Part shown: positions 101-51,717 of the stretch, one piece after another
Numbering within the stretch: position 1 is the stretch's first letter
Layout of the letters: each line of letters opens with the position of its first letter
DNA from: Haloarcula pelagica
Lineage (GTDB): Archaea > Halobacteriota > Halobacteria > Halobacteriales > Haloarculaceae
NCBI RefSeq assembly: GCF_030127105.1
Contig: NZ_CP126163.1
Coordinates: 1 to 64,000, forward strand
Direction: 5' to 3'
Length of the DNA stretch: 64,000 nt
Translations under genes and position numbers: made by a program
Notes under the pieces: generated by a model
The model's input: only the letters and a program-made list of their open reading frames with translations
The model's database searches: none
What the model was told of the DNA's origin: nothing

Positions 101-220
101 TGAGAATCCCGTTGAAACCACTGGAGCGTGAAGTGCGAAATGGAGTTACGAAGGTCGCCACGTCAACCGCGCACCAAAGCGCGTGCAGGTGACAGACCTT
201 GGATGCGAAGGAACAGGAGA

Positions 221-262
221 ATTGGGATCGCAGCTTGGCTGACCGTGGTCGGCCAAGGCTGC
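221..262 (+). ncRNA. Hairpin in IS110 left end, candidate bridge-RNA segment
   Basis: ATTGGG is followed by a long stem-loop (about 230-262, arms GCAGCTTGGCTGACC and GGTCGGCCAAGGCTGC, 2-nt loop, one bulge), then AAGCCC, ending about 55 nt before the transposase start. The second copy has the same flanks around a stem of different sequence (17970-18019). Conserved position with changed but still pairing arms suggests selection on structure. IS110-group bridge RNAs are known to lie upstream of the transposase; assigning this hairpin to one is inference. Confidence 0.35.
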
Positions 263-315
263 AAGCCCGGAGCGATGTCGTTCCGCTTCACGCATTCAGG
301 ACTCCAGAGGACACC

Positions 316-1331
316 ATGACCGCAACCACTGATCACTACTTGGGCATTGACCTCCACAAACGCAAAGCGCAAGTCGCTGTCCTCGATGACGAAGGCGAAG
401 TCGTTGAAGAGGTCCGCGTCGCCAACGCGGACCTCGGCGGAATCGCACAGAAGTACGCTGGAAGTAGTGCTGCACTCGAAGCGGGAAGCAATTACTTCAC
501 GATTTACGACAGGCTTGATGAAGAGTTGGATGTGACGCTCGCCAATCCGGCCAAGGCCGATTGGCTCGAAGACCAGAAACAGAAGAACGATCGGAAGGGC
601 GTCAAAAACCTCGCGCGGTATCTGCGGTTGGGCGAAGTGCCCGAAAGCTACGTCCCACCTGAAGAATGCCGGCGCTACCGCGCTTGCGCGCGGTCGTAAG
701 TTGGTAGAGAAGCGTTCAGACTTCAAAAACGAGGTCAACTCACTGCTTGATCAGAACGGCGTCACCTACGACGGGTCGTTGTGGAGCGATCAAGGGCGTG
801 AGTTCCTCCGCGAACTCATGCTCGACGATGCGTCGGAGTTGTTGTTGGAGCAGTGGTTGGAAGCAATCGATGAGTTCACCGTGAAGATCAAGCGGATGCA
901 GCGGCGGATCGAAGAGGTAGCGGCTGAGGTAGATGAGCTGAATACGTTGATGTCTGCGCCTGGTATAGCGGCATTTTCTGGCTTGATGATCTACAGCGAG
1001 ATCGGTGAAGTAAAGCGGTTTGACCGCGCGGCTGAAGTGGTGAGTCATGCCGGGTTAGACCCAGTAATCCGCGAGTCTGGCGACTCGCGGAGAGAACCAG
1101 ATCAGCAAGGAAGGAAACGGCTACTTGCGATGGATCCTGGTCCAGTGCGCGAACACCGCGGTTCATAACGCGAAGGACCCGTACTTGAGTCAGTTCTACT
1201 GGCGGTTACGCAACAAGCGAAATAAACCGCACAAGGTAGCAATCGTGGCAACAGCGCGGAAGCTGTTATTGGCGTTGTTCAATATGCTCAGGAAGAACGA
1301 ACCGTGCGACCCACCGGAGGTGAGCGCCTGA
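316..1331 (+). pseudogene. IS110-family transposase (frameshifted)
   Basis: The N-terminal DEDD domain begins at the ATG at 316 (YLGIDLHKRKAQVAV) and runs to about 695. The frame then moves (RKLVEKRSD onward), and it moves again near 1090-1125 into the C-terminal transposase_20 part (RWILVQCANTAVH) ending at 1331. Joined, the pieces make a protein of normal IS110 length. The first shift is one base and falls in a GC-rich palindrome (ACCGCGC..GCGCGGT). The N-domain also carries a 10-bp hairpin at 409-435 whose arms covary with the other copy. Two shifts make this copy non-functional unless they are sequence errors. Confidence 0.85.
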
Positions 1332-5171: not shown

Positions 5172-5900
5172 GGCACTGTCTAGTTGAGCGAGTTTGAGAA
5201 GCGAGAAGGCCGTAGCGAGAAGTGTCCATGCAACTCGCAGACCTCCTCAGCGAAACGTTAGATAAGGATAGTCAAGACGTTTGGGAGAACGAGCGTACCC
5301 CGACACCCGTCTGGCGGTTCGGGGTGCGTCTCCACTCGGCGGGGCTGTCGATCAGGGAAACAGCCGCTATCTTACACCTGCTGGGTATCGATCGTTCCCA
5401 CGGTGCGGTCTGGAGCTGGGTTCATACGTTGCCTGAAGCACAGAGCGACCCGCCGACGGCGTCGCCGTCGTGGGTCGCAGTCGATGAGAAACAAATCGAG
5501 GTTGACAGCGAAAAAAGTGGCTCTACGCTGCTGTCGACACAGAGTCAAAATTACTGCTCGAAATCGACGTGTTCAGCCGCCGCGGGGTCAGTCCCGCGGC
5601 GGCGTTCCTATCGACTCACTCAGAAACACGATGTCGCGATTCAGTGTTTCTCGTCGATGCTGGCGGCTATCTGACTGCCCTCTCACACCACGATCTGAGC
5701 TGTCGGCTCGACTACCGTATCGAAAAGTGGTTCCAGACTGCAACCATGCGAATCGATCGCTTTCACTCGTTTTGGCGGGGCAGTCAATCCAGCGCGAAAC
5801 AGTGGTTACGACGCTTCAGACACCACTACAACCACGAACGGCCAAACCAAGCACTCGACGGCAAAACGCTAGGTGAGGTCATTCAGAACTAGATAGTGCC
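5172..5900 (+). mobile_element. IS6-family element
   Basis: Inverted terminal repeats GGCACTGTCTAGTT (5172-5185) and its complement with one mismatch (5887-5900) bound a 729-bp element holding one transposase gene. The size and short repeats are usual for haloarchaeal IS6 members. The flanking 8-mers do not match, so no target duplication is visible. The right repeat overlaps the transposase stop codon. Confidence 0.75.
5228..5892 (+). pseudogene. IS6-family DDE transposase (frameshifted)
   Basis: An N-terminal helix-turn-helix region (RFGVRLHSAGLSIRETA, HGAVWSWVH) leads to the first catalytic Asp block (WVAVDEKQIEVD). The frame then shifts in an A6 run at about 5515 and continues as LYAAVDTESKLLLEIDVFSRRG, VFLVDAGG and RIDRFHSFWRG to NHERPNQALDGKT. 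The two frames together give about 220 residues, the normal IS6 length. Compared with the usual family sequence a few residues seem to be missing before IEKWFQT. A perfect 11-bp hairpin lies in the middle (5576-5603), and another imperfect one at 5445-5478. Confidence 0.8.
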
Positions 5901-6252
5901 GAATCTACAGAAACAAGAGACAGATGACAATAGCTATTAGTCCAGAGAGTGATATCCTTTTGGCGGCACTGCTTGAGGAGCGCGCTCAAAAGCGGTCCAC
6001 TGGCCACCTTTGCACCGCAACCCGGGGCGCGCCCGCCGCCTTCGACCGAGACATAGATCAGGACTCCCTGAGCTAAACGTTCTTGATGCTCGACACCTAA
6101 GTGGCAGGCAGTTATGAGGAGGAAGATTTAGACCAAAGCGATCTTTACAGGTTTCTCGGCAGTACTTTGACCGGTGGAACACAAGGACCTCGGGGTCCCG
6201 ATACTCTCTGTGATTTCGGGTGCAAAAAATTGAGTCGCTCATGTGAAGCACG
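5901..6252. other. Spacer between IS6 and an IS1595 remnant
   Basis: A minus-strand open frame covers most of it but shows no motif, signal or family resemblance. I treat it as non-coding debris between mobile elements. Confidence 0.4.
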
Positions 6253-6720
6253 TTGTTGGTGAATCAGAGGACGGTTCGAACGATTTCTTTGAGAGCGTCT
6301 CGACCTGGTTCGCGTAGGATTCGTCGGCGGAGCTGGAACGCTCTGAGATACGGTGTGAGCTTGTCTTTGGCGATGCCTCGGTGGGGCGAGAGCCACCGTC
6401 GTGTCAGCGACGCGTGGCTCTCGCAGCCGTTGACGTGTACCTCGCCATCAGCGTATTCACCGTCGCCGTCGACGACGTATTCGCGGTCGAACGCGTCGTC
6501 GTCCTCTAGCGAGTCATAGGCCCGAAATCCGTCCGTATAGACGGTCAACGACTCCTGTTCGTGGTCGGCAAGCAGGAGTCGGACGGTCGATTCCTCAGCG
6601 GATTTCGCTGGCACGACATACCGGTCGTCCGACCCGCAATCAACCAGCGTGAACACCGGCGGCTTGTCACCAGCGTACGATCCTCAACCACGCGTGGACA
6701 GCCCACGCGTCGCTGTAATG
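6253..6720 (-). pseudogene. IS1595-type transposase, C-terminal two thirds
   Basis: This is the best preserved of the IS1595 relatives here. From 6656 leftward: MFTLVDCGSDDRYVVPAKSA, VYTDGFRAYDSL, HVNGCESHASLTRRWLSPHRG, then YLRAFQLRRRILREPG, ending near 6264. This covers two of the DDE carboxylates and the C-terminal helix. The N-terminal zinc ribbon is cut off near 6720, where an IS630-type fragment begins. Truncated and non-functional on its own. Confidence 0.75.
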
Positions 6721-6760
6721 AGTGAGGAATCTTTTGTGGGGTCGGTCCGATGTGCTGGCG

Positions 6761-6935
6761 ATGGGACGCGAGCGACGCAAAGAGATCAAGCGTCACATCT
6801 CAGAGGAGAAGCTCAACGAGCTTCTCCGCGACGCCGACAAACACAGGATTCGGCGTCTCGGGTTCGTGAAGAATTTCTACCAAGGCGACACGATTGCCGA
6901 AGCTACCGACCGGGAAGCTCGGTCGGCAGCCACCG
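6761..6935 (+). pseudogene. IS630-type transposase, N-terminal fragment
   Basis: The ATG at 6761 opens MGRERRKEIKRHISEEKL..RRLGFVKNFYQGDTIAEATDRE, the helix-turn-helix start of haloarchaeal IS630 transposases. Family resemblance stops around GRSAATG, where the sequence becomes an IS5-type transposase in another frame. A perfect 10-bp hairpin (GGAGAAGCTC, loop AAC) lies at 6805-6827. Confidence 0.6.
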
Positions 6936-7665
6936 GCCGCCGAGTGGGCGATGCTTGCACTCCAAGCCATTCGTATCGAACTCGGGAAGTCCTACCGCCA
7001 GACAATCGACCTTCTAAGCGAGATGCCCGAAATCCTTGAAGAACTCCGTCTTACGCGGCTTCCTCACTTCACCGCTCTCCGTGACTGGTTCGAGAACATC
7101 CCGATGGAAACCTACCGAGCGTTTCTCGGCGCATCAGCCGAGAAACGCTCTGGTCACGCCGCAATCGACACAACTGGCTTCGACCGTGACCAGCCCTCGC
7201 GCCACTACGCTCAGCGAGCGCATTACCGTGTTCGCTCGCTGAAAGTCACTGCCCTCGTAGACGTGAAAAACGCTGTACGTCTCCGATGTTCACTGCACGA
7301 CCACGAAGAAACACGACGCCAAGATCGGCCCACAGGTCGCTCGGCGCAATGCCGAGGACCTGCGGTCACTGGCTGCTGACCGCGCCTATGATTGAAAACC
7401 GTTCCGGGACGAACTCCGTGAAGATGGCATTCGCCCGCTGGTCAAACACCGCATCTACTCGTCGCTGGATCTTGCGCGCAACGCCCTGATGAGCCGTCTC
7501 TGGTACAATCGCCGCTGGATGGTTGAAACCGTCTCCTCCTCGATCAAGTGCACGCTCGGCTCCGCCGTGCGTGCGCGAGCTGGCACCTCGAATTCCGGGA
7601 AATGGTCCTCAAATGCGCAGTCTACAATCTTCGTCGAGCAGTCAGATACCCAGCAAATTAACCGC
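6900..7665 (+). pseudogene. IS5-family DDE transposase (5'-truncated, frameshifted)
   Basis: LGRQPPAAEWAMLALQ, YRQTIDLLSEMPEI and HFTALRDWFENIP give the N-terminal part. The catalytic core starts with AAIDTTGFDRDQPSRHY and VTALVDV. A shift near 7300 leads to KHDAKIGPQVARRNA and LAADRAYD with a stop, then FRDELREDGIRPL. The C-terminal YNRRWMVETV block carries the catalytic Glu, and further shifts end at AVYNLRRAVRYP. Several lesions, so dead. A perfect 14-bp hairpin (GAGCGTTTCTCGGC arms, 6-nt loop) lies at 7117-7150 and an imperfect one near 7325-7355. Confidence 0.75.
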
Positions 7666-7862
7666 TGTTACTCGGTTTCTGCTCGCTGGCTGAGTGAGTG
7701 AACCCGCCGAAATCAAGCTCCGTATAGCGATCCTACGAAGTACTAATATTTAACAACGGCCTGATACGTATAATCCATTACTTACTTATTGACAGGCAAT
7801 GAATGGATATATGTCTTCTTGTATCCCAAGGAGACACGTTGTGAGTGTGCCAACATTCGCTA

Positions 7863-7891
7863 CCAGAAAGCACATCCTCTGTGCTTTCTGG
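7863..7891 (-). repeat. Perfect 11-bp hairpin downstream of tnpB
   Basis: CCAGAAAGCAC and its complement flank a 7-nt loop, about 55 bp beyond the tnpB stop on the minus strand. IS200/IS605 right ends carry such hairpins, which are recognised by TnpA and form part of the omega RNA that guides TnpB. That role is inferred from position. Confidence 0.45.
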
Positions 7892-7946
7892 CGTCCACTT
7901 TCCGCTACTATTCGACTTGATAGTTCAGAAACACGTCCCTCGTGAA

Positions 7947-8745
7947 CTACCTCGACCGATCCGCGCTGACGCGCTCGTTGAGGACGGGGCTTCCTGCTTC
8001 CACGACGCACTTTGCAGACACAGAGGTGTCCACAGGGAGCGCAGTCTCTACAGGCGTTCGTTTGGAGTGTCCCACTCCTACATCTTGTAGACCGCGAGAA
8101 CGGATGTTCCACGCCGCGTTTGCGTCCCTGTCTGCCCCGAACCCACAGGTAGGACAGGAATGTTCATAGACCCATAGCGGCTTCTCCGTCGAGACGTCGC
8201 ACGCCGCGCACTTTTCGTCGTCCCTCTCGGGTTGACCGCGACGAAGTGCGTACCCTCGTAGTCGCACTTGTATTCGAGCAACGAGAGGAACGTTCGCCAC
8301 GCTGCCGATGCCATGTTGCGACTGTTCGACGATGATTCGAGCATCCCCTTCATCTTCAAGTCTTCAACCGCCACGAAGTCGTACTCCCGAGCGTAGTACG
8401 CCGAGAGCTGTGCAAGAAGTCGCGGCGCTTCCGCCGAAGGTCGGTGTGACACTCCACTATGCACCGCCGTTGCTTCTCGTAGTTGTTCGACCCGTGCTGT
8501 TTGCGCGAGAGCTTCCGTTGCTCGCGCTCCAAGCGGTCGCGTTCGTCCGAGAGGTCGAGCGATCCGACCGCCATGCCGTCGGTGTTGTGGACGTACTTAC
8601 GAATCGCCACGTCGATGCCGACGCACTTCTCGGGCGGCTCGCGGTCCATTTCGATGCCGAAGGTGGCGAATCACTGAGCCGTGGCGACGCCACCGGACGC
8701 CGGTTGACTTCCTCCACGGCTTCACAGTAGTTGCCGATTCAAATT
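7947..8745 (-). pseudogene. tnpB: IS200/IS605-type TnpB (frameshifted remnant)
   Basis: Reading leftward: CVGIDVAIRKYVHNTDG (RuvC Asp region), ERDRLEREQRKLSRKQHGSNNYEKQRR, then shifted YYAREYDFVAVEDLKMKGM with the RuvC Glu, FLSLLEYKCDYEGTHFVAVNP, and finally the zinc ribbon CAACDVS..CPTCGFGADRDANAAWN with the last Asp. The N-terminus is missing. TnpB is an RNA-guided nuclease ancestral to Cas12; the guide overlaps its 3' end. No TnpA is present next to it, and the frame is broken at least twice, so it is a relic. Confidence 0.8.
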
Positions 8746-8939
8746 GCGGTGTGTTCTCTGAGGTATGACGAGATTGTTGAAATCCGGCTTGAGCCGGTTG
8801 TTTGAGCAGTGATTCGAGTAGGCGGTGAGCGAGGAGATGGGAAATTCATGGCGACTGTCAGTCTCGCCAGTACAGAGGGGCGTGCTGACCCAAGCGCTCG
8901 CCTGGGTCTGCCGCCCCGACGAGGCTTATCCGTACGTCA

Positions 8940-10088
8940 CTGGCCCGAGGAAGAACCGAAACGTCGCCGTTGAAACTGCTGGTCGAGTCTTCACCCGACG
9001 TTGCTCCGAAAGTAGCAGACACACCACGATCCAGAGATTGTACAGCGTCACAGCGAACAAAAGTAGAACAACCGCACCGCAAACACCGGCGACGTAGTCC
9101 GGGGCAGAAACTCACCGATCTTCCGGTAGGACGTTTCGATTCCCCAGCGACGCCGATACGCTTGTGCGAGTGGCACCGCTTCATCTACCGTCCTCGGTTG
9201 ATTCGTGATCAGACACAGCGAGTCGTCGTCCCGCGAGTGGTGCGGGACGACGACGAGCGTCACCGGTACACGCATCGTCGGGGACTGCTTTCTGACCAGC
9301 TCGTAGTCGGTGACGAATTTCTCTTCATCGTGTTCGGCAAGAACGCGCTTGATCCCCGGCGTTTTGGGTGCGCGCATGACGAACTCTACACCGAGATCGG
9401 CGAGTTCGTCGACTAACTCGACCCGATAGAGGCCACGATCACAGTAGATGCGGGTGATCGAGACGGCCTGACGCGCCGTCTCGATCACCTCGCGGATCGC
9501 CTCAATCAGAGACGGTGTATCGGTCCGAGCAACGTGTTCGGACGCGAGCGTGAACCGCGCTGCCGGTGACACAATGCACAGTGTCACGAAGACGTAGGCG
9601 AGATTTGTCCCGTGGTCAGAGTTGATTCGTGACACCATCGGTGTCTGCTTCGAGCCGTAATAGAGCCACTCATGGAGGTCTACCGCAACTTCTGCGGTGT
9701 TGGGAAGGCGATGTGCTTTGCGTGTCTGCGTGATGACCTGATCGCGGACGCCATCGAACTGAGCGTCGATGGTGTCCGCTTCCATCTGCCCGAAGTTGTA
9801 CAGGAGTGACTTCGCTGGCGGACTCCGGTCTTCGAGGTCGAGATCGTCACCTCTGGCAAGTTGGAGGTGCCTAGCACTGGTGTTGGTGAACCCTCGTTCG
9901 AACCCACTCCGAGTGAGGACTCTGGCGAAGTCCTCACTCGGATAGGTACCATTGACCTTCACCCCGAAGTCCAAGGACGGATAGAGAAGCGATCTTGCGG
10001 CACGGCAGACCTGCCGTGCCTCGGCGGTATCGACCATACTTGTCGTACGGTGCCACCGGAGAAATCGGTCTCTCAGCCACTTCGGCAA
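8940..10088 (-). pseudogene. IS4-type DDE transposase (one frameshift)
   Basis: The main frame runs 10088 to 9048: RDRFLRWHRTTSMVDTAEA, VKVNGTYPSEDFARVLTRS, AVDLHEWLYYGSK, ITRIYCDRGLYRVELV, and the C-terminal YRRRWGIETSYRKIGEF block with the catalytic Glu. At about 9060 one T seems missing from a T run; restoring it continues LFAVTLYNLWIVVCLLLSEQ. The N-terminus may start further upstream, in another frame. Perfect hairpins of 10 to 15 bp occur at 9222-9254, 9453-9489, 9908-9942 and 9999-10020. It cuts the C-terminal end of the next minus-strand gene. Confidence 0.75.
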
Positions 10089-10122
10089 CTACTGTGAAGG
10101 GGTGGGCTTCCGCAGCTTTCTG

Positions 10123-10860
10123 TCACTCGACTACGACGGCGTCGTGCAACCGGGTGACGGCGGTCAGAACCGGGAACGTCCAGGGCTGATCGGCATAGAG
10201 GTGCATACAAAGCGAACGGCCGTCGACCGGTGACGGGGAGATCCGACTGTGGATCACCGACTGTCGGTCCCGGACGATCTCGTCGAGTCGGACTTCGAAT
10301 TCCTCTTTGTACCAGTCCTGGATGATCACGTCGTCGAGGGATTCGACGATCTCTTTGATGGCACTGCCAGCTGTCGCGAGCGCGGTGGCTTCCTCGTCGA
10401 GCACGTCGGCGTAGGCAGTCCGATCGTCGATCGCGCAATCGACGGCGGTCAGCAGGGCCGAGCGTTGGTGTGGCGTGACCGTGCTCGTGGATGAGTCGAC
10501 TACTGCCGCGGTGAAGTCGCCAAGTTCGGCGAGCATGTGCTCTGACAGCGACTCGCCGTAGACCGCCTCGTAGTGTGGGACACTCATCACGGTCGATTCG
10601 AAGGCATCGGCCAGGCGCTCAACCTGATTGAGACAGTCATCACCGCTGACCACGGACCGCTGTCGGTTCGATGGCGTCGCCGTGGCGGGACGGAGGTCAG
10701 AGACGGCTGTCCTGAACGATTCGAAGGCCGATCGCTCGGCGGCGACCTCCTCGCGCTCCCGGGAGACTCTGCTCTGTGCGTCCGATATCGGCTCTACAAC
10801 GTGGTGTCTGAAGATCCTGAGATACTGCCGTGGGCCGCCGGGGAGGGTAGTCTGGACCAT
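10123..10860 (-). CDS. Coiled-coil haloarchaeal protein, DUF7260-like
   Basis: About 245 residues from the Met at 10860 (an earlier Met lies at 10923). The N-terminal VEPISDAQSRVSREREEVAAERSAF is a charged helix. Several acidic helices follow, with alternating DF, ADVLDEEATAL and VESLDDVIIQDWY segments. There is no signal peptide or catalytic motif. I recognise the general shape of a widespread haloarchaeal family I believe is DUF7260, of unknown function. The reading ends abruptly after TAVTRLHDAVVVE, right where the IS4-type element begins, so the C-terminus has probably been replaced. A regulatory or signalling role has been suggested only by context elsewhere; nothing here proves it. Confidence 0.55.
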   Translation of the reverse strand: MVQTTLPGGPRQYLRIFRHHVVEPISDAQSRVSREREEVAAERSAFESFRTAVSDLRPATATPSNRQRSVVSGDDCLNQVERLADAFESTVMSVPHYEAVYGESLSEHMLAELGDFTAAVVDSSTSTVTPHQRSALLTAVDCAIDDRTAYADVLDEEATALATAGSAIKEIVESLDDVIIQDWYKEEFEVRLDEIVRDRQSVIHSRISPSPVDGRSLCMHLYADQPWTFPVLTAVTRLHDAVVVE

Positions 10861-11115
10861 GTTATGATATGTAATTCTATATGACAAAGATGTTTGTTTC
10901 AGATACCTTCCGTTTTTCACCATATTATAGAGATAGAACTACATAATAGGTCGCTTTATCTGGATTGAGGCGCTAAGCCCTCTCCTCACCGAGCGCCGAA
11001 GGCACGAGCAGGGGGATACAGCGCCGCACGGTTCTCATATACTCTCCGGTTGTAGGCCTACAGGCCCACGCAATCGTAATATTTTTTTAGGGTAGCATGA
11101 TATCTACTGAACCCA

Positions 11116-11519
11116 ATGGAATACGACCTCGATTCGGGAGCGCACTCAACGTACTCCCTGCATTACCACCTGATACTCACCACGAAGTATCGGCGTGGAG
11201 CGCTAACCGAGGAGCGAACCCAATTTATTCGCGGAATCATCAGCGAGTTCACGGACAACTACGGTGTCGAACTGACGAACCTCGACGGCGAGGATGATCA
11301 CGTACACAACCTCTTCCGAGCGAAGCCGCCACAGACCTCGTGAAGTTCATCAACACGGTCAAGGGCGCGACCGCCCGCCGTATTCGCAATGAGTACGCGG
11401 ACGAACTGAAGACCGAACTGTGGAGCGACTCGTTCTGGAACGATTCGTACTGTCTCATCTCGACGGGGCAGGTGTCGCTGGATGTGCTGAAACAGTACGT
11501 CGAAGACCAACGCGAGTAG
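11116..11519 (+). pseudogene. tnpA: TnpA, Y1 HUH transposase of IS200/IS605 (one frameshift)
   Basis: MEYDLDSGAHSTYSLHYHLI and the HUH motif in DGEDDHVHNLF identify a single-strand transposase. At about 11330 one base is lost; the other frame continues TDLVKFINTVKGATARRIRNE to LDVLKQYVEDQRE, which includes the catalytic Tyr. Joined, the protein has the usual length of about 135 residues. HUH TnpA cuts and joins single-stranded ends at hairpins such as the one upstream. Confidence 0.8.
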
Positions 11520-12227
11520 AGGCCTATGTACTACGCCTACAAGTACCGTCTCAAGCCGTCCGACGCCCACTGTGAGGAGTTGGACCGCCACCGAGATATT
11601 TGTATGCAACTGTATAACCACACGCTCTACCACCTCAACGAGTATCAAGATGAACAGACGAACTGCCGTCGATAACTACCCTGCGGTCGGAACTCCCCGA
11701 CCTCAAGGAGTGGTGGAACGACCTCTCTGACGTGTACTCGAAGGTTTTCCAAACCGTCGTAGAACGGCTGTTCGACAACCTCAACGGCCTCTCCAAGCTC
11801 AAGGAGAACGGCTACGGCGTCGGTTAACTCAGTGGAAGCCGCCACGAGAGTTCCGTAGTTTCACGCACAGCCAGTCTGGCTTCAAGCTCGATAAGAAGAG
11901 CGGTCAGACCATGCTATCACTCTCAAAACTCGGTGACATCCCGATACGGCACCACCGTTTCATCCCCGACGACGCGAATCTCAAGCAGGTCACGGTCAAG
12001 AAGGGACCAACGGTCGAGCGGTTCGCCACCTTCGGCATCGAAATGGACCGCGAGCCGCCCGAGAATCCCGAGAAGTGAGCGGCATCGACGTAGGGATTCG
12101 TAAGTACGTCCACAACACCGACGGAACCGCCGTAGGGTCGCGCTCGACCTCTCGGATGAACGCGACCGCTTGGAGCGCGAGCAACGGAAGCTCTCGCGTA
12201 AACAGCACGGGTCGAACAACTACGAGA

Positions 12228-12632
12228 GATGGTGTTATAGAAGTATTCACACACTATAATAGATTTTCCTGACCGTTATAGAACGTTACTGCTTAGAAAG
12301 TCGTGCATTTGGTGCACGGTATGTTAAAATACTCAAAGAGTGCCCTTTCGTTTCCGAATTATGATTTTTCTCACTCGCTCAACGTGGTTTGACTCAGATT
12401 GAACGAACGCTGTGAGGATGGCCTCGACGATCTCGGAGCCAACCGCTCCGAGATCGTCACACTCATCGACCAGTTCGTCCACCTCTCGTACAATTTTCTC
12501 GTCAGCAGCGACTCCGAATGTCTCTTTCGCCATAGCTACGACAAGCTAAAAATAGTATACACCAAGTGTACGGCGCTTTCAATTCGTTAGAGGTAATTCA
12601 GCAAACCATGAGAAATCTTCTATGACACCCTC
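12228..12632. mobile_element. 405-bp mini-element with 16-bp terminal repeats
   Basis: The ends GATGGTGTTATAGAAG and (complement of right end) GAGGGTGTCATAGAAG match at 14 of 16 positions. Both sides carry the 6-mer ACGAGA (12222-12227, 12633-12638), which is single in the intact tnpB copy at 8 kb, so it is a target duplication. Inside are one small minus-strand gene and a hairpin (CGTGCA, loop TTTGG). There is no transposase, so it must have moved in trans. I do not recognise the parent IS. Confidence 0.75.
12333..12533 (-). CDS. 66-residue protein inside the mini-element, ribbon-helix-helix-like
   Basis: It opens MAKETFGVAADEKIVREVDE, with GSEIVEAILTAFVQSESNH in the middle and a basic tail RKIIIRKRKG. 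A short strand, a helix and a second helix with S-E-I-V resemble ribbon-helix-helix DNA-binding proteins; this is a shape argument only. The start lies about 100 bp from the right terminal repeat. A hairpin (CGTGCA stem, 12303-12319) follows the gene and could end its transcript. The gene contains a perfect 14-bp inverted repeat at 12426-12458 (GACGATCTCGGAGC arms). The frame is intact although everything around it is broken, which suggests a recent insertion or selection on the product. Confidence 0.6.
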   Translation of the reverse strand: MAKETFGVAADEKIVREVDELVDECDDLGAVGSEIVEAILTAFVQSESNHVERVRKIIIRKRKGTL

Positions 12633-12936
12633 ACGAGAAGCAACGGCGGTGCATAGTGGAGTGTCACACCGACCTTCGGCGGAAGCGCCGCGACTTCTTG
12701 CACTCTCGGCGTACTACGCTCGGGAATACGACCTCGTAGCGGTCGAAGACCTGAACGTGAAGGAGATGATGGATCGCCATCGAATAGTCGCAACACTGCG
12801 TCTACCGCGTGGCGAACGTTCCTCTCGTTGCTCGAATACAAGTGCGAGCGTGAAGGAACGTACTTCGTCGCGGTCAACCCGAGAGGGACGACCAAGGAGT
12901 GCGCGTCGTGCGGCGTTTCGACCGACAAGCCATTGT

Positions 12937-14364
12937 CGGTACTTCCCATCGTTCCTGATTGCTGACTCAATTTCTGGAGGGAAACGAGCGAGATCGGAGT
13001 GACCGATTCATGGGTCGAACAAGGACGGCGTTCTCACAGCAGTTAGAGCGCCGTCAGTCCAGACAAGAGGCGAAGCTGTCGCTCACGGACAGGGCTGCTA
13101 CTGGACGCGGGCAGCTTCAGCCCGCGTCCAGCTGGCTGTATGTCGCCGAGATGCCGACACCGTTGGTTGGCGCTTCCCACTTCCGGCCCAACCTGTCGTC
13201 GAGAGCATGGTCAATCCACTCGCGGAATACTTCGAAGCGGAACCAGACAGGGAGTGCTCGCCCGCCGCGCCGCGGCGGGGCGAGCACGCCCCATCGCACG
13301 ATCAGCCAGAGATTCCGCAGGAGGAAGCTCACGAAAACGAACAACAACCACACGGTTGGATCAGTCGTACTCGTCCGCGCACGTGCTTCGCGCATCGTTC
13401 AGAAGACTGTCTCAATCGCTGAACGTTTCTCGTAGAGGGCTTCGACTTCCTTGGGCGTGCGATCGGTCAGATCGCACGCCACGCAGGCCCGGACGAGCAA
13501 CCCGTGCTTGCCTCAGTTGCCCTGTTGATAGGAAACACAGACCGCGAGCGGGAAGCGCAGTTCCCGCTCGCTTCCTTCATACATCACGCACTCCGTCCAG
13601 TAGGAAACCGTCGTGTCCAGTTTCTCGGCCATCTGTTTCCCACGGCGGATGATCGGGAGAGCGACTGGTGCTGTGGCATCCAGTCGCTCGATCGAAGAGC
13701 CGTCGTAGAATCCACGGTCAGCAAGGAGTCCAGCCACGTCGAATGGAAGGACTGCGACGTGGTCGGGCAGTCGCTCGACCGCGTCGCTTTTGGGTTCATC
13801 ACTGCGGACGGGAGTGACTGCGACGGCAAGCGGTTTCGCCCGACAGAGGACGAATCCAGCGAGGTAGCGATGGCACTGAGAGGTGCCATCGCGGGGTTTC
13901 GTGTGGCAAAGTTCGCCAGCCTCAGCGTGTGGACAGCCGTGGTAGTGGATATCGACGAAGTCGAGGCAGATGATCCTCGGGCCGGGGCCGAGGATCATCG
14001 CCGCCTGCTGGGCGAAGAGGTCGTTAACGACGGTTTCGAGTTCGTTAGGTGGGACGGTGTGAAGCTGAGCGAGTGTGTAGTCGTCGGAATACGTTCCACG
14101 AGTGGTGTCGGTGACAGCCTTGATGGATTTTTGATCGACAGCGGCTTGCAGGAGTGTCTGCCGGATGATCCCGGAGTCGAAGCCGCAGCCTTCGACTCCG
14201 GGGATCGGTATCTCGGCGAGGAGACTCTCCGCTAAGGTTTCAACATCTGAAGCCGTAAGGACAGTGTCTGGATGGTAGAGGCAATTCACAACACCCATCC
14301 AGACGCTCTCTACGAATCTAACCCCATCAGTCTTGACTAACTCCTGACTCGATGAGAACTACCG
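12937..14364 (-). mobile_element. 1428-bp IS with 5-bp target duplication
   Basis: The ends CGGTACTTCCCATCG and (complement of right end) CGGTAGTTCTCATCG are inverted repeats with two mismatches. The 5-mer ATTGT is present on both sides (12932-12936, 14365-14369) and once in the reconstructed tnpB. The single minus-strand transposase gene is related to the ISH3/ISH6 type. A fragment of the same kind of end occurs at 16023-16060. A perfect 12-bp hairpin at 13101-13131 sits at the transposase stop codon. Confidence 0.8.
13117..14298 (-). pseudogene. DDE transposase of the ISH3/ISH6 type (frameshifted)
   Basis: The frame from 14298 gives GVVNCLYHPDTVLT, DQKSIKAVTDTTRGTYSDDYT, IICLDFVDIHYHGCPHAE (first catalytic Asp region) and LLADRGFYDGSSIERL (second), down to VCVSYQQGN and a stop at 13513. 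The continuation GKHGLLVRACVACDLTDRTPKEVEALYEKRSAIETVF, with the catalytic Glu, is in frame after that stop. One shift then leads to MREARARTSTTDPTVWLLFVFVSFLLRNLWLIVRW, ending at 13117. The order of motifs matches ISH3-like enzymes, but the N-terminus differs, so the family is not firm. Five perfect inverted repeats of 10 to 12 bp lie within the gene. Confidence 0.7.
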
Positions 14365-14561
14365 ATTGTGGGTCGGTGAACACTCCTGCCCCGGCTGCGG
14401 GTTCGAGGCGGACAGGGACGTGAACGCGGCGTGGAACATCCGTTCTGGCGGTCCACAAGATGTAGGAGTGGGACACTCCGAACGAACGCCTGTAGAGACT
14501 GCGCTCCCTATGGACACCTCCGTGTCTGCAAAGTGCGTCGTGGAAGCAGGAAACCCAACCC

Positions 14562-15660: not shown

Positions 15661-15669
15661 TTCGGGATC

Positions 15670-17969: not shown

Positions 17970-18019
17970 ATTGGGCGCTACAGCCCGGATGCCGCGGGGC
18001 GCGGCATCCGGGAAAGCCC
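17970..18019 (+). ncRNA. Hairpin in IS110 left end, candidate bridge-RNA segment
   Basis: ATTGGG, then a perfect 13-bp stem CCCGGATGCCGCG (17984-17996) with a GGG loop and the complement at 18000-18012, then AAAGCCC, ending about 50 nt before the transposase. Same place and flanks as the hairpin in copy A but with different arm sequence. Confidence 0.35.
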
Positions 18020-18068
18020 GCATAGGTGAATCTCTGTTCCATGCACTGGCGTCCCGGAGTGAGAATCA

Positions 18069-19065
18069 ATGTACCTTGGAATTGATGTTCACAAGCGGCA
18101 CGCACAGGTGGCAGTAATGGATGAAGACGGTGAGATTGTCGAAGAGGTTCGCGTCGAGAACGCGAACCTCGACGAACTCGCCCAGCGGTACGCTGGTGCC
18201 GAGGCCGTCATCGAAGCGACCACCAATTACTACCACATCCACGACACGCTGTCAGAGCATTTGGATGTGACTGTTGCTCACCCTGGGAAACTCTCGCTGA
18301 TCGCAAACGCGGACAAGAAGACTGATCGCGTCGACGCTAAAGAGTTGGCGCGGATGGGTCGGTTGAATTCAGTGCCGGAGAGTTACGTTCCGACCGACGA
18401 AATCAGGAAGCCCGCGCACGAGTGCGCGGGCGACAGAAACTGGTAGAGACTCGGACCGACTACGCCAACAAGATCCACGGATTGTTATCCGAACACGGGA
18501 TCACGCGTGAGATCAAGCCGCTGAGTGTATCGGGGCGAGAGTCCCTTCGGGACCTCTCGCTCCCGACGCCGTGGGACGAGTTGTTAGCGTCGTATCTCAC
18601 GATGATCGAGACACTGACCGAAGAGATCGAGCGACTCGAAGCTGCAATCGAAGAGCGCGCTGGGTCTCTGAAGGAGACCCGCTGCTGATGACGATTCCCG
18701 GCGTAAGCTACTATTCGGCCCTGATGATCTACGCCGAAGTCGGCGATATAGGGCGGTTTGATAGGGACAAAGAAGTCGTGAGTTACGCTGGATTGAACCC
18801 GGTGATCCGCGAGTCAGGCGACTCGCGGATCGAAGGTGGTATCTCGAAACGTGGATCCCGGCAGTTACGCTGGATCCTCGTCCAGTGTGCGCGCACAGCC
18901 GTCCATACCTGCAACGATGAGTATCTTAGTCGGTTCTACGACCGATTAGCGGGAAAGAAAGGATCGCAAAAAGCGATCGTCGCAACTGCTCGCAAGTTGC
19001 TGGTGTCTATCTTCCACATGCTCGACCGAAAGGAGGTGTATAACCCGCCAGGTGTGAGTGTCTGA
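18069..19065 (+). pseudogene. IS110-family transposase (two frameshifts)
   Basis: MYLGIDVHKRHAQVAVMDE and KKTDRVDAKELARMGRL give the N-terminal DEDD domain to about 18410. After one lost base the frame continues RGRQKLVETRTDYANKIHGLL. A second lost base near 18680 leads to LLMTIPGVSYYSALMIYAEVGD, YAGLNPVIRESGDSR and RWILVQCARTAV, ending at 19065. Each shift is exactly one base, and each lies in a perfect palindrome (GCCCGCGCAC/GTGCGCGGGC; GGGTCTC/GAGACCC). Better conserved than copy A. Confidence 0.85.
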
Positions 19066-19090
19066 CCGCCGCCGGTCCGGCGGCGGTCAG
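19062..19090 (+). terminator. 14-bp hairpin on the IS110 stop codon
   Basis: CTGACCGCCGCCGG and its exact complement are separated by one base and include the TGA stop. Copy A has a different hairpin at the same point. There is no T run, so the function may be RNA structure rather than simple termination. Confidence 0.45.
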
Positions 19091-31494: not shown

Positions 31495-31567
31495 CTGGTC
31501 CGCCAACACATCTCTATCTCTATAGCTCCAGAGAAACTCATCGATAAGAGATACTGAGGTAGTGAAA

Positions 31568-33244
31568 ATGACGGCAACCCCGGAGTCTCGTCGGGTAGTC
31601 TTCCGACGGATCGCAAGACGTTTGTATACTGATTGGCCGGCGTACGATTCGACACCGTTGTACGATCGGACGTCGCTTGCCGGTCTGGAATCGGACGTTC
31701 GTATCGTCTCTACAACGTGGTTCAGACACGATGATCATACCTCCGTCGAGCAGTTCGTCTGCTCGCTTCCATTGGCCTATGTTATCTTTGACGCTGAGGA
31801 TCGCTACGCCGGGCCCACACAATACGAGATGGACACTCTCTTTCGGATGTTCGTACTGAAAGAACTCCACAGCTGGGAGCACGAAACAGTTCTCGTCGAC
31901 TACCTAGAGAACCGTCCTGAACTCTGTGAGCAACTGGGTCTCGAAACGATTCCGGATCAGTCAACACTGTGGCGAAGCTGGCACGAGCGGTTCTCCGCTG
32001 ACCTCAGGGAGACAGTCGAGACAGCGGCTAGAACAATCCTCATCAAAGCCCAGAATGCGGGTGTCGCGGTTCCGCGTGAGCCAACACGAAAGCTCCGATA
32101 CCACGGGAACGAGTCTGGTGAGTCAGACCCGGACGATCAAACTACGTTGGAGCAGGCAGAGAAGATCACCGACCACGTCAGCCGCATCGTTTTCGCAGCG
32201 TTCTCGCTGGACCGAGGAAGGGGCTGTGAGATCCACGAGAACGCGTACTGGGACCTCCAGACGTATCTCGGACTCCGAGAGCGGTTGGCTGCGAACGAAG
32301 GGGCTCGCAGTTTCGTCTATGAGTCGTCCTGTGACCGAACCCCGATGGGACATGCCCACCGAGAGCATATTCGCGACCTCTCAATTTCAGAGATTCGTGA
32401 AATGTACCGACAGGCCGTGAATAGGCTCCTGAATGAGGTCGCGGAGACGGAGCAGTTCTTTCGAGGTGGAATCGTCGCGATCGACATCACCGAAGCCGAT
32501 CCGTTCACGGGCGACCGAACGGGCCACGAAGACGAGATCATCGGGACGAAAGAGCAGACCGACGAGTACGCCTATCAGTGGGCGACAGTCCAGTTGGTCG
32601 GGAACGCCGTCCCAATCGTGCTGGACGCGCGCCCGGTACGGAAAGGAGAGTCACGAAAGGAGATCGTCGAGGACCTGGTGGGTTCGGCTGAGGATCTCGT
32701 TCATGTCGATAACATCCTGATGGACCGGGAGTTCGATAGCCAACACGTTCTGGAGATGCTCAGCCAGCGCGGGCTTTCCTACGTCGTTCCGAAACGGATG
32801 CAGACCAGCGAGAAAGCGCAGGCGAAGCGATTGCTCCACCGTGATCAAGATCGATATGAGACTGACCGGAAGCTCCACCTTGGGAAGAACGAGTGGCACG
32901 AGACGACGCTAATCTACCGTCGGAAAGAGGACTCAGAGCACGACGATCATCGACAGTATTCGGTGTTTATGACGAATTGCGGGAGCGGACACCTTACGGA
33001 GTACGGCTACAGGTGGGAAATCGAAAGCGGCTATAGATCGATAAAGCGGTTCATGGCGGCGACGACGTCGAAGGATTTCGGGCTACGGTTCTTCTACTTC
33101 GCATTCGCCTGCCTATTGTACTCGATCTGGCGGGCTGTCGATCTGCTCGTGCAGGTTGAGTTGACTGGTGAGTACGAACATTCACCGATCGTAACAGCCG
33201 ACAACACGCTGACGCTGCTGAAGAAGGAGACTGGAATCGGGTAG
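31568..33244 (+). CDS. Full-length IS4-type DDE transposase, copy 1
   Basis: 558 residues, intact. The N-terminal part ends ETVETAARTILIKAQNAGVAV. The catalytic core follows: GGIVAIDITEADPFTGDRTG (first Asp), VHVDNILMDREFDSQHVLEML (second) and YGYRWEIESGYRSIKRFMA (Glu of the YREK-like motif), with FFYFAFACLLYSIWRAVDLL after it. This is a long haloarchaeal IS4-like type. A second copy at 50.0 kb is nearly the same and in the same direction. Similarity between the two continues about 190 bp past the stop and ends at TAGTCTCAACT (33421-33431), the likely right end. I see no shared sequence upstream of the start, so the left end is unresolved. Confidence 0.85.
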   Translation: MTATPESRRVVFRRIARRLYTDWPAYDSTPLYDRTSLAGLESDVRIVSTTWFRHDDHTSVEQFVCSLPLAYVIFDAEDRYAGPTQYEMDTLFRMFVLKELHSWEHETVLVDYLENRPELCEQLGLETIPDQSTLWRSWHERFSADLRETVETAARTILIKAQNAGVAVPREPTRKLRYHGNESGESDPDDQTTLEQAEKITDHVSRIVFAAFSLDRGRGCEIHENAYWDLQTYLGLRERLAANEGARSFVYESSCDRTPMGHAHREHIRDLSISEIREMYRQAVNRLLNEVAETEQFFRGGIVAIDITEADPFTGDRTGHEDEIIGTKEQTDEYAYQWATVQLVGNAVPIVLDARPVRKGESRKEIVEDLVGSAEDLVHVDNILMDREFDSQHVLEMLSQRGLSYVVPKRMQTSEKAQAKRLLHRDQDRYETDRKLHLGKNEWHETTLIYRRKEDSEHDDHRQYSVFMTNCGSGHLTEYGYRWEIESGYRSIKRFMAATTSKDFGLRFFYFAFACLLYSIWRAVDLLVQVELTGEYEHSPIVTADNTLTLLKKETGIG

Positions 33245-50040: not shown

Positions 50041-51717
50041 GTGACAACTTCTCGGGAGTCTCGATGTGTTGTCTTTCGACGGATCGCACGCCAGCCGCAC
50101 GTTGCGTGGCCAGTCTATGATACGACACCGTTGTACGATCGAACGTCGCTCGCTGGACTGGAATCCGATATCCGGTCAGTCTCAGAGACGTGGTTTGACC
50201 ACGATAGTCACGACTCCGTCGAGGAGTTCGTCTGTGCACTCCCGCTAGCCTACTTCAGGTTCGGTGCCCACGACCGGTATTCGGGGTCGACACGCTACCG
50301 GATGGACACTCTCTTTCGGGTATTCGTACTGAAGGAACTCCACGGATGGGAGCACGAAACAGCACTCGTCGACTACCTCGGGACCCGCCCTGAACTCTGC
50401 GAGCAACTGGGTTTCGAGACGATCCCGGACCAGTCGACACTGTGGCGAAGCTGGTACGAGCGGTTCACCCCTGACCTCCGAGAGACTGTCGAGACAGCGG
50501 CTCGAACGATTCTCATCAAAGCACAGAATGCAGGTGTCGCGGTTCCGCGTGAGCCGGCACGAAAGCTCCGATACCACGGGAACGAGTCTGGTGAGTCAGA
50601 CCCGAATGATCAAACTACGTTGGAGCAGGCAGAGAAGATCACCGGACACGTCAGCCGCATTGTGTTCCCGGCATTTTCGCTGGATCGTGGAGACGGCTGC
50701 GAGATCCACGAGAACGCGTACTGGGACTTACAGACATATCTCGGACTTCGCGAGCGGCTGGCTGCGAACGAAGGTGCTCGTAGTTTCCTCTACGAATCGA
50801 CTCGGGATCGGACCCCGCTGGGGCACGCCCATCGCGAGCAGATTCGCGATTTCTCGATTGAACAGGTGCGAGCGATGTACCAGCAGGCCATCACTCGGCT
50901 CCTAAACGAAGTTTCGGAGACAGAGCAGTTCTTTCGAGCCGGAATCGTCGCGATCGACATCACCGAGGACGACCCCTTTACCGGTGACCGCACCGGCCGC
51001 GAGGACGAGATAATCGGAACGAAGGAGAAGAGCGACGAGTACGCCTACCAGTGGGCAACGGTCCAGCTAGTCGGCAACGCTGTCCCACTCGTCCTTGATG
51101 CCCGCCCGGTACGGAAAGGCGAGTCACGAAAGGAGATCGTCGAGGACTTGCTGGATTCGGCTGAGGACCTTGTTCACGTCGATAACGTGCTGATGGACCG
51201 GGAGTTCGATAGCCAGCACGTCCTAGAGATGATCAGCCAGCGCGGCCTCTCCTACGTCGTGCCAAAGCGGATGCAGACCAGCGAGAAGGCTCAGGCGAAC
51301 CGATTGCTCCAGTGTGACCAGGACCGATACGAGACCGACCGGAAGCTCCACCTCGGGAAGAACGAATGGCACGAAACAACACTGATCTACCGGCGGAAAG
51401 AGGACTCCGAGCACGACGACCACCGGCAGTATTCGGTGTTCATGACGAACCGGGGGAGCGGACACCTTACGGAGTACGGCTACAGGTGGGAAATCGAAAG
51501 TGGCTATCGATCGATAAAGCGGTTCATGGCGGCGACGACGTCGAAGGATTTCGGGCTCCGGTTCTTTTACTTCGCATTCGCCTGCCTGTTGTACTCAATC
51601 TGGCGGGCTGTCGATCTGCTCGTACAGGTCGAATTGACTGGGGAGTACGAGCACTCACCGGTGATTACAGCGGACAACACGCTGACGCTGCTGAAGAAGG
51701 AGACTGGAATCGGGTAG
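50041..51717 (+). CDS. Full-length IS4-type DDE transposase, copy 2
   Basis: 558 residues, starting at GTG. Nearly the same protein as the gene at 31.6 kb, with scattered substitutions (for example DEDD-like region GIVAIDITEDDPFTGDRTG and MDREFDSQHVLEMI) and the same YGYRWEIESGYRSIKRF block. The shared nucleotide similarity runs on past the stop to TAGTCTCAACT (51894-51904) and stops there. Direct orientation relative to copy 1 makes the 16.6 kb between them a candidate composite unit. No 5' flank is shared. Intact and probably active or recently so. Confidence 0.85.
   Translation: MTTSRESRCVVFRRIARQPHVAWPVYDTTPLYDRTSLAGLESDIRSVSETWFDHDSHDSVEEFVCALPLAYFRFGAHDRYSGSTRYRMDTLFRVFVLKELHGWEHETALVDYLGTRPELCEQLGFETIPDQSTLWRSWYERFTPDLRETVETAARTILIKAQNAGVAVPREPARKLRYHGNESGESDPNDQTTLEQAEKITGHVSRIVFPAFSLDRGDGCEIHENAYWDLQTYLGLRERLAANEGARSFLYESTRDRTPLGHAHREQIRDFSIEQVRAMYQQAITRLLNEVSETEQFFRAGIVAIDITEDDPFTGDRTGREDEIIGTKEKSDEYAYQWATVQLVGNAVPLVLDARPVRKGESRKEIVEDLLDSAEDLVHVDNVLMDREFDSQHVLEMISQRGLSYVVPKRMQTSEKAQANRLLQCDQDRYETDRKLHLGKNEWHETTLIYRRKEDSEHDDHRQYSVFMTNRGSGHLTEYGYRWEIESGYRSIKRFMAATTSKDFGLRFFYFAFACLLYSIWRAVDLLVQVELTGEYEHSPVITADNTLTLLKKETGIG

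Follow-up and report, generated by a model that had tools for sequence, protein, structure and literature searches.

Sets of short perfect hairpins inside transposase genes of haloarchaeal insertion sequences

The window analysed in this study comprises the first 64,000 nucleotides of contig NZ_CP126163.1 of Haloarcula pelagica (C3:1-64000; C3 is a contig in a genome of four contigs, C1-C4). It contains insertion sequences (ISs) of several families, among them two IS110 copies, IS6, IS630-like and IS5 sequences, a broken ISH3 element, an ISH8/IS4 gene and an intact transposase gene at 9.05 kb, and short perfect hairpins lie within these sequences (Table 1). For identification of such hairpins we scanned for perfect stems of at least 9 bp with loops of 2-12 nt. 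Hairpins are written as a/b, for stem bp and loop nt.

Hairpins in the window and in the genome

The scan revealed 39 stems in the window, 33 of which have at least 10 bp. In dinucleotide shuffles (20 replicates) about 0.65 stems of at least 10 bp are expected, summed over four stretches of the window, which agrees with the estimate of fewer than one such case per 64 kb in an initial annotation made from the sequence alone. By stretch, 24 stems of at least 9 bp were found against 0.85 in the shuffles at 5-20 kb, 4 against 0.15 at 61-64 kb, 4 against 0.25 at 0-5 kb and 7 against 1.75 at 20-61 kb. A preference for IS genes had been suspected, and 28 of the 39 stems lie inside the 14,988 bp hand-marked as IS, with the other 11 in the remaining 49 kb. 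All 15 stems located by the initial annotation were recovered at their positions. Their lengths were right for most, and two are one pair longer (9908-9942, 14 bp; 14170-14202, 13 bp). The further stems that it had announced for both IS110 copies and ISH8 were found and are now each placed by coordinate; the stems of the window which it did not list singly include those starting at 7211, 7863, 13454, 13659, 17984, 18144, 18410, 18804, 19062, 61532 and 62083.

In synonymous-codon shuffles (40 replicates), the intact transposase gene 9051-10088, encoding 346 amino acids (aa), is expected to contain 0.07 stems and contains 4; the ISH8-like gene of the window contains 3 against 0.17. Because these shuffles keep the protein yet give almost no stems, protein motifs are not the cause. 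The transposases at 31.6 and 50.0 kb, in which comparable hairpins had been thought absent, have indeed no stem of at least 9 bp. Two long non-IS genes of the window, 36054-38273 and 47324-49768, each carry 2 stems of at least 9 bp where the null gives 0.07 and 0.20, a small surplus in non-IS sequence, and three other long non-IS genes have none.

The hairpins had also been linked to old IS genes. This link is not supported, as intact elements carry stems too, and the old, broken look of the IS genes is partly assembly error. Positions 1-42847 of the window occur a second time at C3:215267-258123; the two readings agree to 99.84%, with 14 mismatches and 40 gap openings between them, and the simplest explanation is the untrimmed overlap of a circular replicon with indel errors. 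The gene 9051-10088 is intact in the window reading but broken in the second one, and the opposite holds for the IS110 gene at 116-1325.

With the overlap counted once, C3 contains 75 stems of at least 10 bp against 2.6 expected. The first 560 kb of the chromosome are at chance level for stems of at least 9 bp (75 against 74) and of at least 10 bp (20 against 22); for at least 8 bp, 300 were found against 231. The first 140 kb of C2 have 7 stems of at least 10 bp against 4 expected and C4 has 11 against 2. Two ISH8-type genes of 458 aa, on C1 and C2, carry 4 stems each against 0.10, and two DDE genes of 254 aa on C1 carry 2 stems against 0.03-0.07. No stem was found in the DDE genes of 540 and 565 aa on C2 and C1. 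The stem trait tracks the IS and not the replicon, since the chromosome stretch is at chance level yet IS copies elsewhere on the chromosome carry stems.

Conservation across families and hosts

Homologues were drawn from 145 genomes of the same class. The ISH3 query (C3:164231-165412) scores 380.8 bits against the ISH3 model, above the cut-off of 225. The open reading of the first IS110 gene (C3:215382-216596) scores 225.1 bits against the NCBIfam IS110 model (cut-off 140), and window positions 61641-62393 score 174.2 bits against the IS4 family model (cut-off 115). The 9.05-kb family consists of the relatives of gene 9051-10088, for which ISH3 is the nearest NCBIfam model; with 119.9 bits the gene stays below the cut-off of 225 and is a remote ISH3 relative only. 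ISH3 genes contain 7.42 stems per gene against 0.25 in the synonymous null, with at least three stems in 33 of 33 genes. The corresponding values are 4.12 against 0.08 for IS110 (14 of 16 genes), 4.56 against 0.10 for ISH8 (8 of 9), 4.0 against 0.15 for ISH11 (2 of 2) and 2.07 against 0.14 for the 9.05-kb family (13 of 28, half of the 28 being remote relatives).

The stems occupy the same alignment positions in other genomes, with paired changes. A position was counted when at least 3 sequences had a hairpin there (at least 5 in the ISH3 divergence analysis described below); an ISH3 hit of 26% identity, two remote ISH8 hits, the two ISH11 sequences, a duplicate and the 14 remote relatives of the 9.05-kb gene were left out of this count. 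One ISH3 hairpin is perfect in all 32 aligned sequences; for the remaining listed hairpins the number ranges from 4 to 29. The ISH3 copy of the window was compared with copies from Haloarcula sp. GH36, Natrinema, Haloplanus and Haloarcula halobia at 70-86% identity. Its seven hairpins between 13101 and 14202 are mostly present in the four copies, with paired changes at three of them. Only the stem at 13454 is perfect in all four, and some others are lost or shifted. In the fourth homologue (L270) the first 600 bases were trimmed, so the hairpin at 13101 is not covered there. A comparison with reference copies had been suggested, to see whether the arms became more perfect in this window. They did not, since ISH3 homologues elsewhere carry hairpins at the same positions, most of them equally perfect. 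Conservation across genomes was compared for ISH3, IS110, ISH8 and the 9.05-kb family. As judged from these alignments, the hairpins are inherited and have been conserved within haloarchaeal transposase genes of the ISH3, ISH8/IS4, IS110 and 9.05-kb families.

Similar sets were found on pNRC200, a 365-kb plasmid of Halobacterium salinarum, of which three 50-kb stretches were scanned (synonymous null 0.10-0.50 per gene). Stems were counted in ISH3B (10), ISH27-2 (8), ISH8 (4), ISH8A (6), ISH8B (5), ISH8E (5), ISH11 (5), ISH28 (2), ISH10 of the IS66 family (5) and ISH32 (7), and none in ISH7A and ISH7B. No stems occurred in the two TnpA and four TnpB genes scanned, and a single IS6 gene had one. 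The inner arm of the window hairpin 12426-12458 recurs in pNRC200 hairpins inside short hypothetical open reading frames (ORFs; L155:20927 and 24911), and these hairpins together may mark an unannotated element. On the Haloarcula plasmid pNG500 (L154), of 34 stems, 33 are not in any of the five listed IS genes; several share hairpin arms of IS110, ISH8 or ISH3, at sites unnamed in an incomplete gene table.

In more distant hosts the hairpins are rarer. Among the 22 DDE genes from genomes sharing only the phylum, the mean is 0.27 stems (null 0.05), and among eight from the same order or closer it is 3.12 (null 0.14), one of them having none. These genes were the best-scoring loci and not a random draw, and the longest ORF was used for each; in L232 and L239 it lies on the strand opposite to the match, so that their nulls are doubtful. 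The sole case of its kind among the 22 is a DDE transposase gene of 39% GC in a phylum-level relative (L231 of G164), with 4 stems of at least 9 bp against 0.15. The rhizobial plasmid pNGR234a has one stem among 11 IS genes, E. coli IS1, IS5 and IS30 have none, and seven bacterial IS110 genes have one in total. Salinibacter pSR35 (4 against 1.7) and virus HF2 (6 against 2.7) show small excesses. In the Deinococcus MP1 record (L160), 17 of 20 stems lie in one IS cluster at 13.9-18.8 kb; a Deinococcus IS3 gene has none. A stem near nt 570 is retained by relatives of ISDra1 from four further Deinococcus records, where its paired changes are of the transversion type; in one of the four it has only 10 bp and a larger loop. 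Two IS630 relatives have their stems in common only in part, and in one Deinococcus IS630 gene, which has stops in the annotated frame and was left out of the family-model scoring, the synonymous null was computed in a doubtful frame. The genome contigs scanned with a Deinococcus transposase contained no relative, so that the bacterial comparison draws on plasmid records and a single E. coli stretch. Of the ISs sampled from methanogens, rhizobia, E. coli and actinobacteria, most are without such hairpin sets.

A literature search, in which subscription journals were thinly covered, turned up no earlier description of such hairpins. In enterobacterial IS10, IS200 and IS50, the structure of the mRNA or the binding of RNA to it limits how much transposase is made. 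This control acts at the ribosome-binding site or the 5' end, whereas the hairpins described here are spread over the coding sequence. Quasi-palindromes acting as hot spots of template switching have perfect arms, short loops and loop inversion and are mutation hot spots. The IS hairpins share perfect arms, short loops and loop inversion with them but form long-conserved sets under nucleotide-level constraint. Template switching at quasi-palindromes is also cited in a study of palindromes in mitochondrial coding sequences of Nematomorpha (PMC6649704). There, as here, perfect inverted repeats lie in protein genes with both arms coding, and an origin by template switching is discussed. In that study, the Nematomorpha repeats (at least 15 bp) average 43 bp; at least 48 are species-specific, four are found at one and the same site in each of the four species, and imperfect repeats were not seen in excess. 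In contrast, the IS arms have 9-18 bp and positions common across genera, imperfect stems are also in excess, inverted loops occur, and it is mainly transposase genes that bear the hairpins. The sotRNA families sot0042 and sot2652 of IS200/IS605 likewise are structured RNAs in haloarchaeal IS genes; they lie near the 3' end of TnpB-type genes (PMC8303175), the type in which the four scanned genes lack the present hairpins. The strings of hairpins suggest an unrecognised control layer on mobile DNA.

Constraint, proposed function and alternatives

Diversity at fourfold degenerate sites is lower in stems than outside. It is 0.124 against 0.373 in ISH3 (p=2e-9), 0.311 against 0.511 in the 9.05-kb family (p=5e-5), 0.115 against 0.292 in ISH8 (p=0.002) and, more weakly, 0.416 against 0.545 in IS110 (p=0.035). 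Across 70 ISH3 sequences, whose pairs are not independent, the divergence of stem columns is 0.37-0.52 times that of the remaining columns wherever sequences differ by 3 to 24%. Stems with mismatches also exceed expectation, and the overall excess of stems stops at loops of about 20 nt. The stems are strung along the genes, a spacing judged without statistics. The folding gain over synonymous shuffles is -63 kcal/kb for the sense and -58 kcal/kb for the antisense strand (first 600 nt of 30 genes). These data support nucleotide-level selection, acting on top of the protein code, as what probably keeps the hairpins. Of the options raised by the initial annotation, selection for structure in the transcript or in single-stranded DNA is the best supported, by the slower evolution of stems and the threefold lower fourfold-site diversity in ISH3.

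As to function, we tentatively prefer a built-in brake on transposase synthesis, a possible reading whose chances we put a little short of even. The transposase mRNA of each gene would form about three to ten perfect hairpins locally, and the antisense transcript, frequent over such genes, would fold alike. Ribosomes would stall, and little transposase would be made from abundant mRNA. Transposition would then need helpers such as the Sm-like protein SmAP1, which may open the hairpins. In DNA, the same inverted repeats would now and then let the replicating strand switch template and flip the loop. An atlas of H. salinarum reports high mRNA levels for the mobilome, of whose 33 proteins 4 were detected, three of these being TnpB (PMC10134880). 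As TnpB is the class without stems in the four genes scanned, its detection is counted in favour of the brake. In the same source, ribosomes pile up at the 5' end of an ISH3 transcript, deletion of SmAP1 reduces transposition of IS4 and ISH3 family elements, and the authors mention a hairpin-melting potential of this protein (PMC10134880). In another study, 58 of 846 antisense RNAs overlie transposases (PMC6523106). A translation brake with both transcripts folded would explain most of this published pattern. If selection holds, several transposase families that are unrelated to one another, from two distant extremophile groups, would bear an extra nucleic-acid code at their synonymous sites, in place across genera. 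It would offer a handle on why H. salinarum has abundant transposase mRNA with almost no protein, and on why SmAP1 promotes IS4 and ISH3 transposition.

Several observations weigh against the brake or the selection behind it. The one detected mobilome protein that is not TnpB comes from ISH2, an element assigned to the ISH8 family and outside the set of scanned genes, and the authors judged the binding of SmAP1 consistent with low GC (PMC10134880). The stem-free proteins at 31.6 and 50.0 kb and those of ISH7A and ISH7B are transposases too. The ISH3 stem/other ratio climbs to 0.72-0.84 above 24% divergence. Selection on sense RNA would favour G-U over A-C, and the counts show no such preference: stem cells comprise 4853 Watson-Crick pairs, with 83 G-U, 78 A-C and 207 other mismatches, and stems with a single mismatch are enriched 19.0-fold for G-U (26 cases), 20.7-fold for A-C (20 cases) and 32.6-fold for others. 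Broken copies speak only faintly for selection. In a first test with 12 broken of 70 copies the stem/other ratio was 0.55 against 0.48 in intact ones and the Watson-Crick fraction was 0.820 in both, so that relaxation is weak. In a larger test the ratio was 0.51 in intact copies (n=57) and 0.52 in copies with 1-2 lesions (n=26), which thus show no relaxation. Copies with at least three lesions gave 0.69 against 0.51 (p=0.011, n=8) after removal of one copy. This copy, the window ISH3, is badly aligned (72 of 268 stem sites changed) and was dropped after the result had been seen; with it the ratio is 0.82 (p=4e-6, n=9). The evidence for selection from broken copies is weak.

Reconstructed changes on the tree are mixed with respect to G-U tolerance. 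Watson-Crick pairs changed to G-U 112 times and to A-C 94 times (slid controls 1.5-1.8 to 1), and G-U returned to Watson-Crick 19 times against 60 for A-C, which taken alone fits a tolerance of G-U. Since G-U mismatches are no commoner than A-C ones, the constraint looks strand-symmetric, acting on DNA or on sense and antisense RNA both. Because of this symmetry the hairpins may also act in DNA, for example by blocking recombination between copies.

Haloarchaea and Deinococcus are polyploid, recombination-rich hosts. Hairpins in single-stranded IS DNA, on either strand, could block strand invasion and annealing between copies, and only ISs without ectopic recombination would persist there. We consider this explanation doubtful. 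It accounts for a constraint which looks strand-symmetric and confined to Watson-Crick pairs, for the limit at loops of about 20 nt or less, for the scatter of the stems along the genes and for the presence of hairpins in haloarchaeal and Deinococcus ISs with few in the other groups sampled. It does not fit the hairpin-free DDE elements of the same hosts (ISH7A and ISH7B), the elements of about 600 aa that occur in several copies in G137, known from a listing and not from a DNA scan, or the hairpin-free IS200/IS605 genes. In addition, the host sample is small. That unrelated transposon families of haloarchaea and Deinococcus were convergently selected for Watson-Crick anti-recombination hairpins in coding DNA is, as a claim of its own, rather unlikely. 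If true, synonymous sites of mobile DNA would hold a hidden anti-recombination code in hosts that rebuild shattered polyploid genomes.

Loop inversion is the expected trace of template switching during replication, and it was observed in ISH3. At five hairpins, relatives that share the same inner arms have loops that are precisely the reverse complement of one another, namely CTCGGT/ACCGAG (4 direct differences), ACAGCTG/CAGCTGT (7), CGGCTACGCCGC/GCGGCGTAGCCG (10), CGCCGAGGC/GCCTCGGCG (7) and CCGGC/GCCGG (3). With a flip-like pair defined by at most one difference to the reverse complement and at least three direct ones, 36 of 295 pairs within ISH3 hairpins, at 6 of 23 positions, are flip-like, against 13 of 928 between different hairpins. 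By the same strict count IS110, ISH8 and the 9.05-kb family have none, with few testable pairs. The window copy shows three inversions by eye, all relative to Haloplanus, at 13454-13480 (1 of 5 loop positions differs), 13659-13689 (1 of 13) and 14170-14202 (1 of 7); one of them was found by the strict count. Inversions occur also in broken copies (L167, L199, L270). L167, with one in-frame stop, has an exact inversion of a 12-nt loop which is identical in all of the 26 among 32 aligned ISH3 genes that have this perfect hairpin. An inversion in an IS5-like element shrank to a 3-nt loop once closing pairs were removed and was not counted. Since loops are inverted between relatives, template switching acts in ISH3, and the inversions, which provide natural examples of the process, suggest that the inverted repeats pair in DNA in vivo.

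Such switching, for instance during gap repair after transposition, could also copy arm onto arm and thus maintain functionless, self-perfecting stems, as argued for the Nematomorpha palindromes (PMC6649704). We regard this purely mutational upkeep as unlikely. The inversions between identical arms, broken copies included, and the strand symmetry agree with it, as does the equal Watson-Crick fraction of broken and intact copies; pairwise ISH3 ratios of paired to single changes are also one to two times those of slid controls in most divergence bins and higher in sparse low ones. Per branch, however, 24 paired changes stand against 7-26 in the controls (8 Watson-Crick to Watson-Crick doubles against 0-5), no clear excess, and rapid co-conversion of arms was not found in the pairwise and per-branch ISH3 counts. 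In the lowest bin, at about 1% divergence, the stem/other ratio is 0.8 with 51 single and no paired changes, so single mismatches accumulate and persist, with the reservation that pairs are not independent. A rough estimate from one copy (L270) puts the flips of a hairpin at about 2 per substitution per site, which falls far short of what the upkeep of about 24 stem sites would need, and template switching is apparently too rare to maintain the stems. There is some relaxation of stems in heavily broken copies, stems with mismatches are over-represented too, and the first 560 kb of the chromosome lack any excess of stems of at least 9 or 10 bp. Template-switch correction, an option of the initial annotation, has left traces in the loops, but the arms did not become more perfect in the window.

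A classical structured RNA of the sense strand, riboswitch-like or a non-coding RNA inside the gene, would account for conserved positions and covariation, but the equal tolerance of G-U and A-C, the many separate short hairpins in place of one fold and the absence of any match in an Rfam scan of the window at the gathering threshold make it highly improbable. An artefact of amino-acid motifs or haloarchaeal codon bias has practically no chance, as shuffles keeping protein and codon pool yield 0-0.5 stems where 2-10 are seen, and 0.40 perfect 12-bp arms where 71 are seen; the codon register shared by real and null-model hairpins (103/135 vs 270/390) was discarded as evidence, as the null model prefers the same register.

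Features of the window and neighbouring genes

Table 1. IS genes, hairpins and stem-free control genes of the 64-kb window. Fractions refer to homologous sequences with the hairpin perfect (at least 9 bp where so marked).
Feature	Position	Strand	Hairpin	Remarks
IS110 transposase gene	116..1325	+		frames broken here; open (406 aa) in second reading C3:215382-216596
Hairpin in IS110 gene	409..435	+	11/5	10/16 (at least 9 bp), paired changes
Hairpin in IS110 gene	1068..1091	+	10/4	position (alignment column 966) 10/16
Hairpin in IS6 (ISH17-like) gene	5576..5603	+	11/6	equal arms in Haloarcula pNG500 IS6, L154:26315
Hairpin in IS630-like fragment	6805..6827	+	10/3	IS630 label from initial annotation and plasmid match
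Hairpin in IS5 fragment	7117..7150	+	14/6	match 6938-7740
Hairpin in IS5 fragment	7211..7242	+	10/12	match 6938-7740
Hairpin just past IS5 match	7863..7891	not assigned	12/5	
Intact 346-aa DDE transposase	9051..10088	-		PF01609; four hairpins
Hairpin in gene 9051-10088	9222..9254	-	13/7	
Hairpin in gene 9051-10088	9453..9489	-	15/7	
Hairpin in gene 9051-10088	9908..9942	-	14/7	position 11/13 (at least 9 bp)
Hairpin in gene 9051-10088	9999..10020	-	10/2	
Hairpin outside any ORF of 100 aa	12426..12458	not assigned	14/5	
Broken ISH3 element	12930..14370	-		86% DNA identity to Haloarcula sp. GH36 stretch annotated ISH3 transposase
Hairpin in ISH3	13101..13131	-	12/7	3/3 covered; paired C-G to T-A change
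Hairpin in ISH3	13454..13480	-	11/5	4/4; paired T-A to G-C change
Hairpin in ISH3	13544..13571	-	11/6	3/4; shifted stem in fourth
Hairpin in ISH3	13659..13689	-	10/11	at least 9 pairs in 3/4; paired G-C to A-T change
Hairpin in ISH3	13867..13892	-	10/6	3/4
Hairpin in ISH3	13969..13999	-	12/7	2/4; one mismatch in another, lost in fourth
Hairpin in ISH3	14170..14202	-	13/7	1/4; one mismatch in 3/4
Hairpin just upstream of second IS110 gene	17984..18012	+	13/3	identical one in Haloarcula pNG500 (L154:47818)
Second IS110 copy, broken	18051..19059	+		three pieces, 37-62% aa identity to first copy
Hairpin in second IS110	18144..18170	+	11/5	paired change vs 409-435 (T-A for C-G)
Hairpin in second IS110	18410..18431	+	10/2	position 10/16
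Hairpin in second IS110	18804..18831	+	12/4	position 10/16
Hairpin at IS110 gene end	19062..19090	+	13/3	
560-aa DDE transposase (control)	31562..33244	+		no stem of at least 9 bp
558-aa DDE transposase (control)	50041..51717	+		no stem of at least 9 bp
ISH8/IS4 transposase gene	61095..62465	-		frames broken, internal stops; 70% to pNRC200 ISH8B
Hairpin in ISH8	61532..61564	-	13/7	position 5/7 ISH8 genes
Hairpin in ISH8	61692..61717	-	11/4	position 7/7 ISH8 genes
Hairpin in ISH8	62083..62116	-	13/8	position 5/7 ISH8 genes
Hairpin in ISH8	62302..62335	-	12/10	position 5/7 ISH8 genes

Two regions next to the ISs were also noted. At 14565-15669 on the minus strand lie two ORFs that overlap, and each shows a partial match to squalene/phytoene synthase (PF00494); judged by these matches, this is probably a split or frameshifted gene adjoining IS copies. 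Between 16811 and 20000, pieces with genes for a CBS-domain protein and an AI-2E transporter match a plasmid of Halorubrum sp. PV6 at 91.7%, perhaps a segment exchanged beside ISs, and the AI-2E ORF looks truncated.

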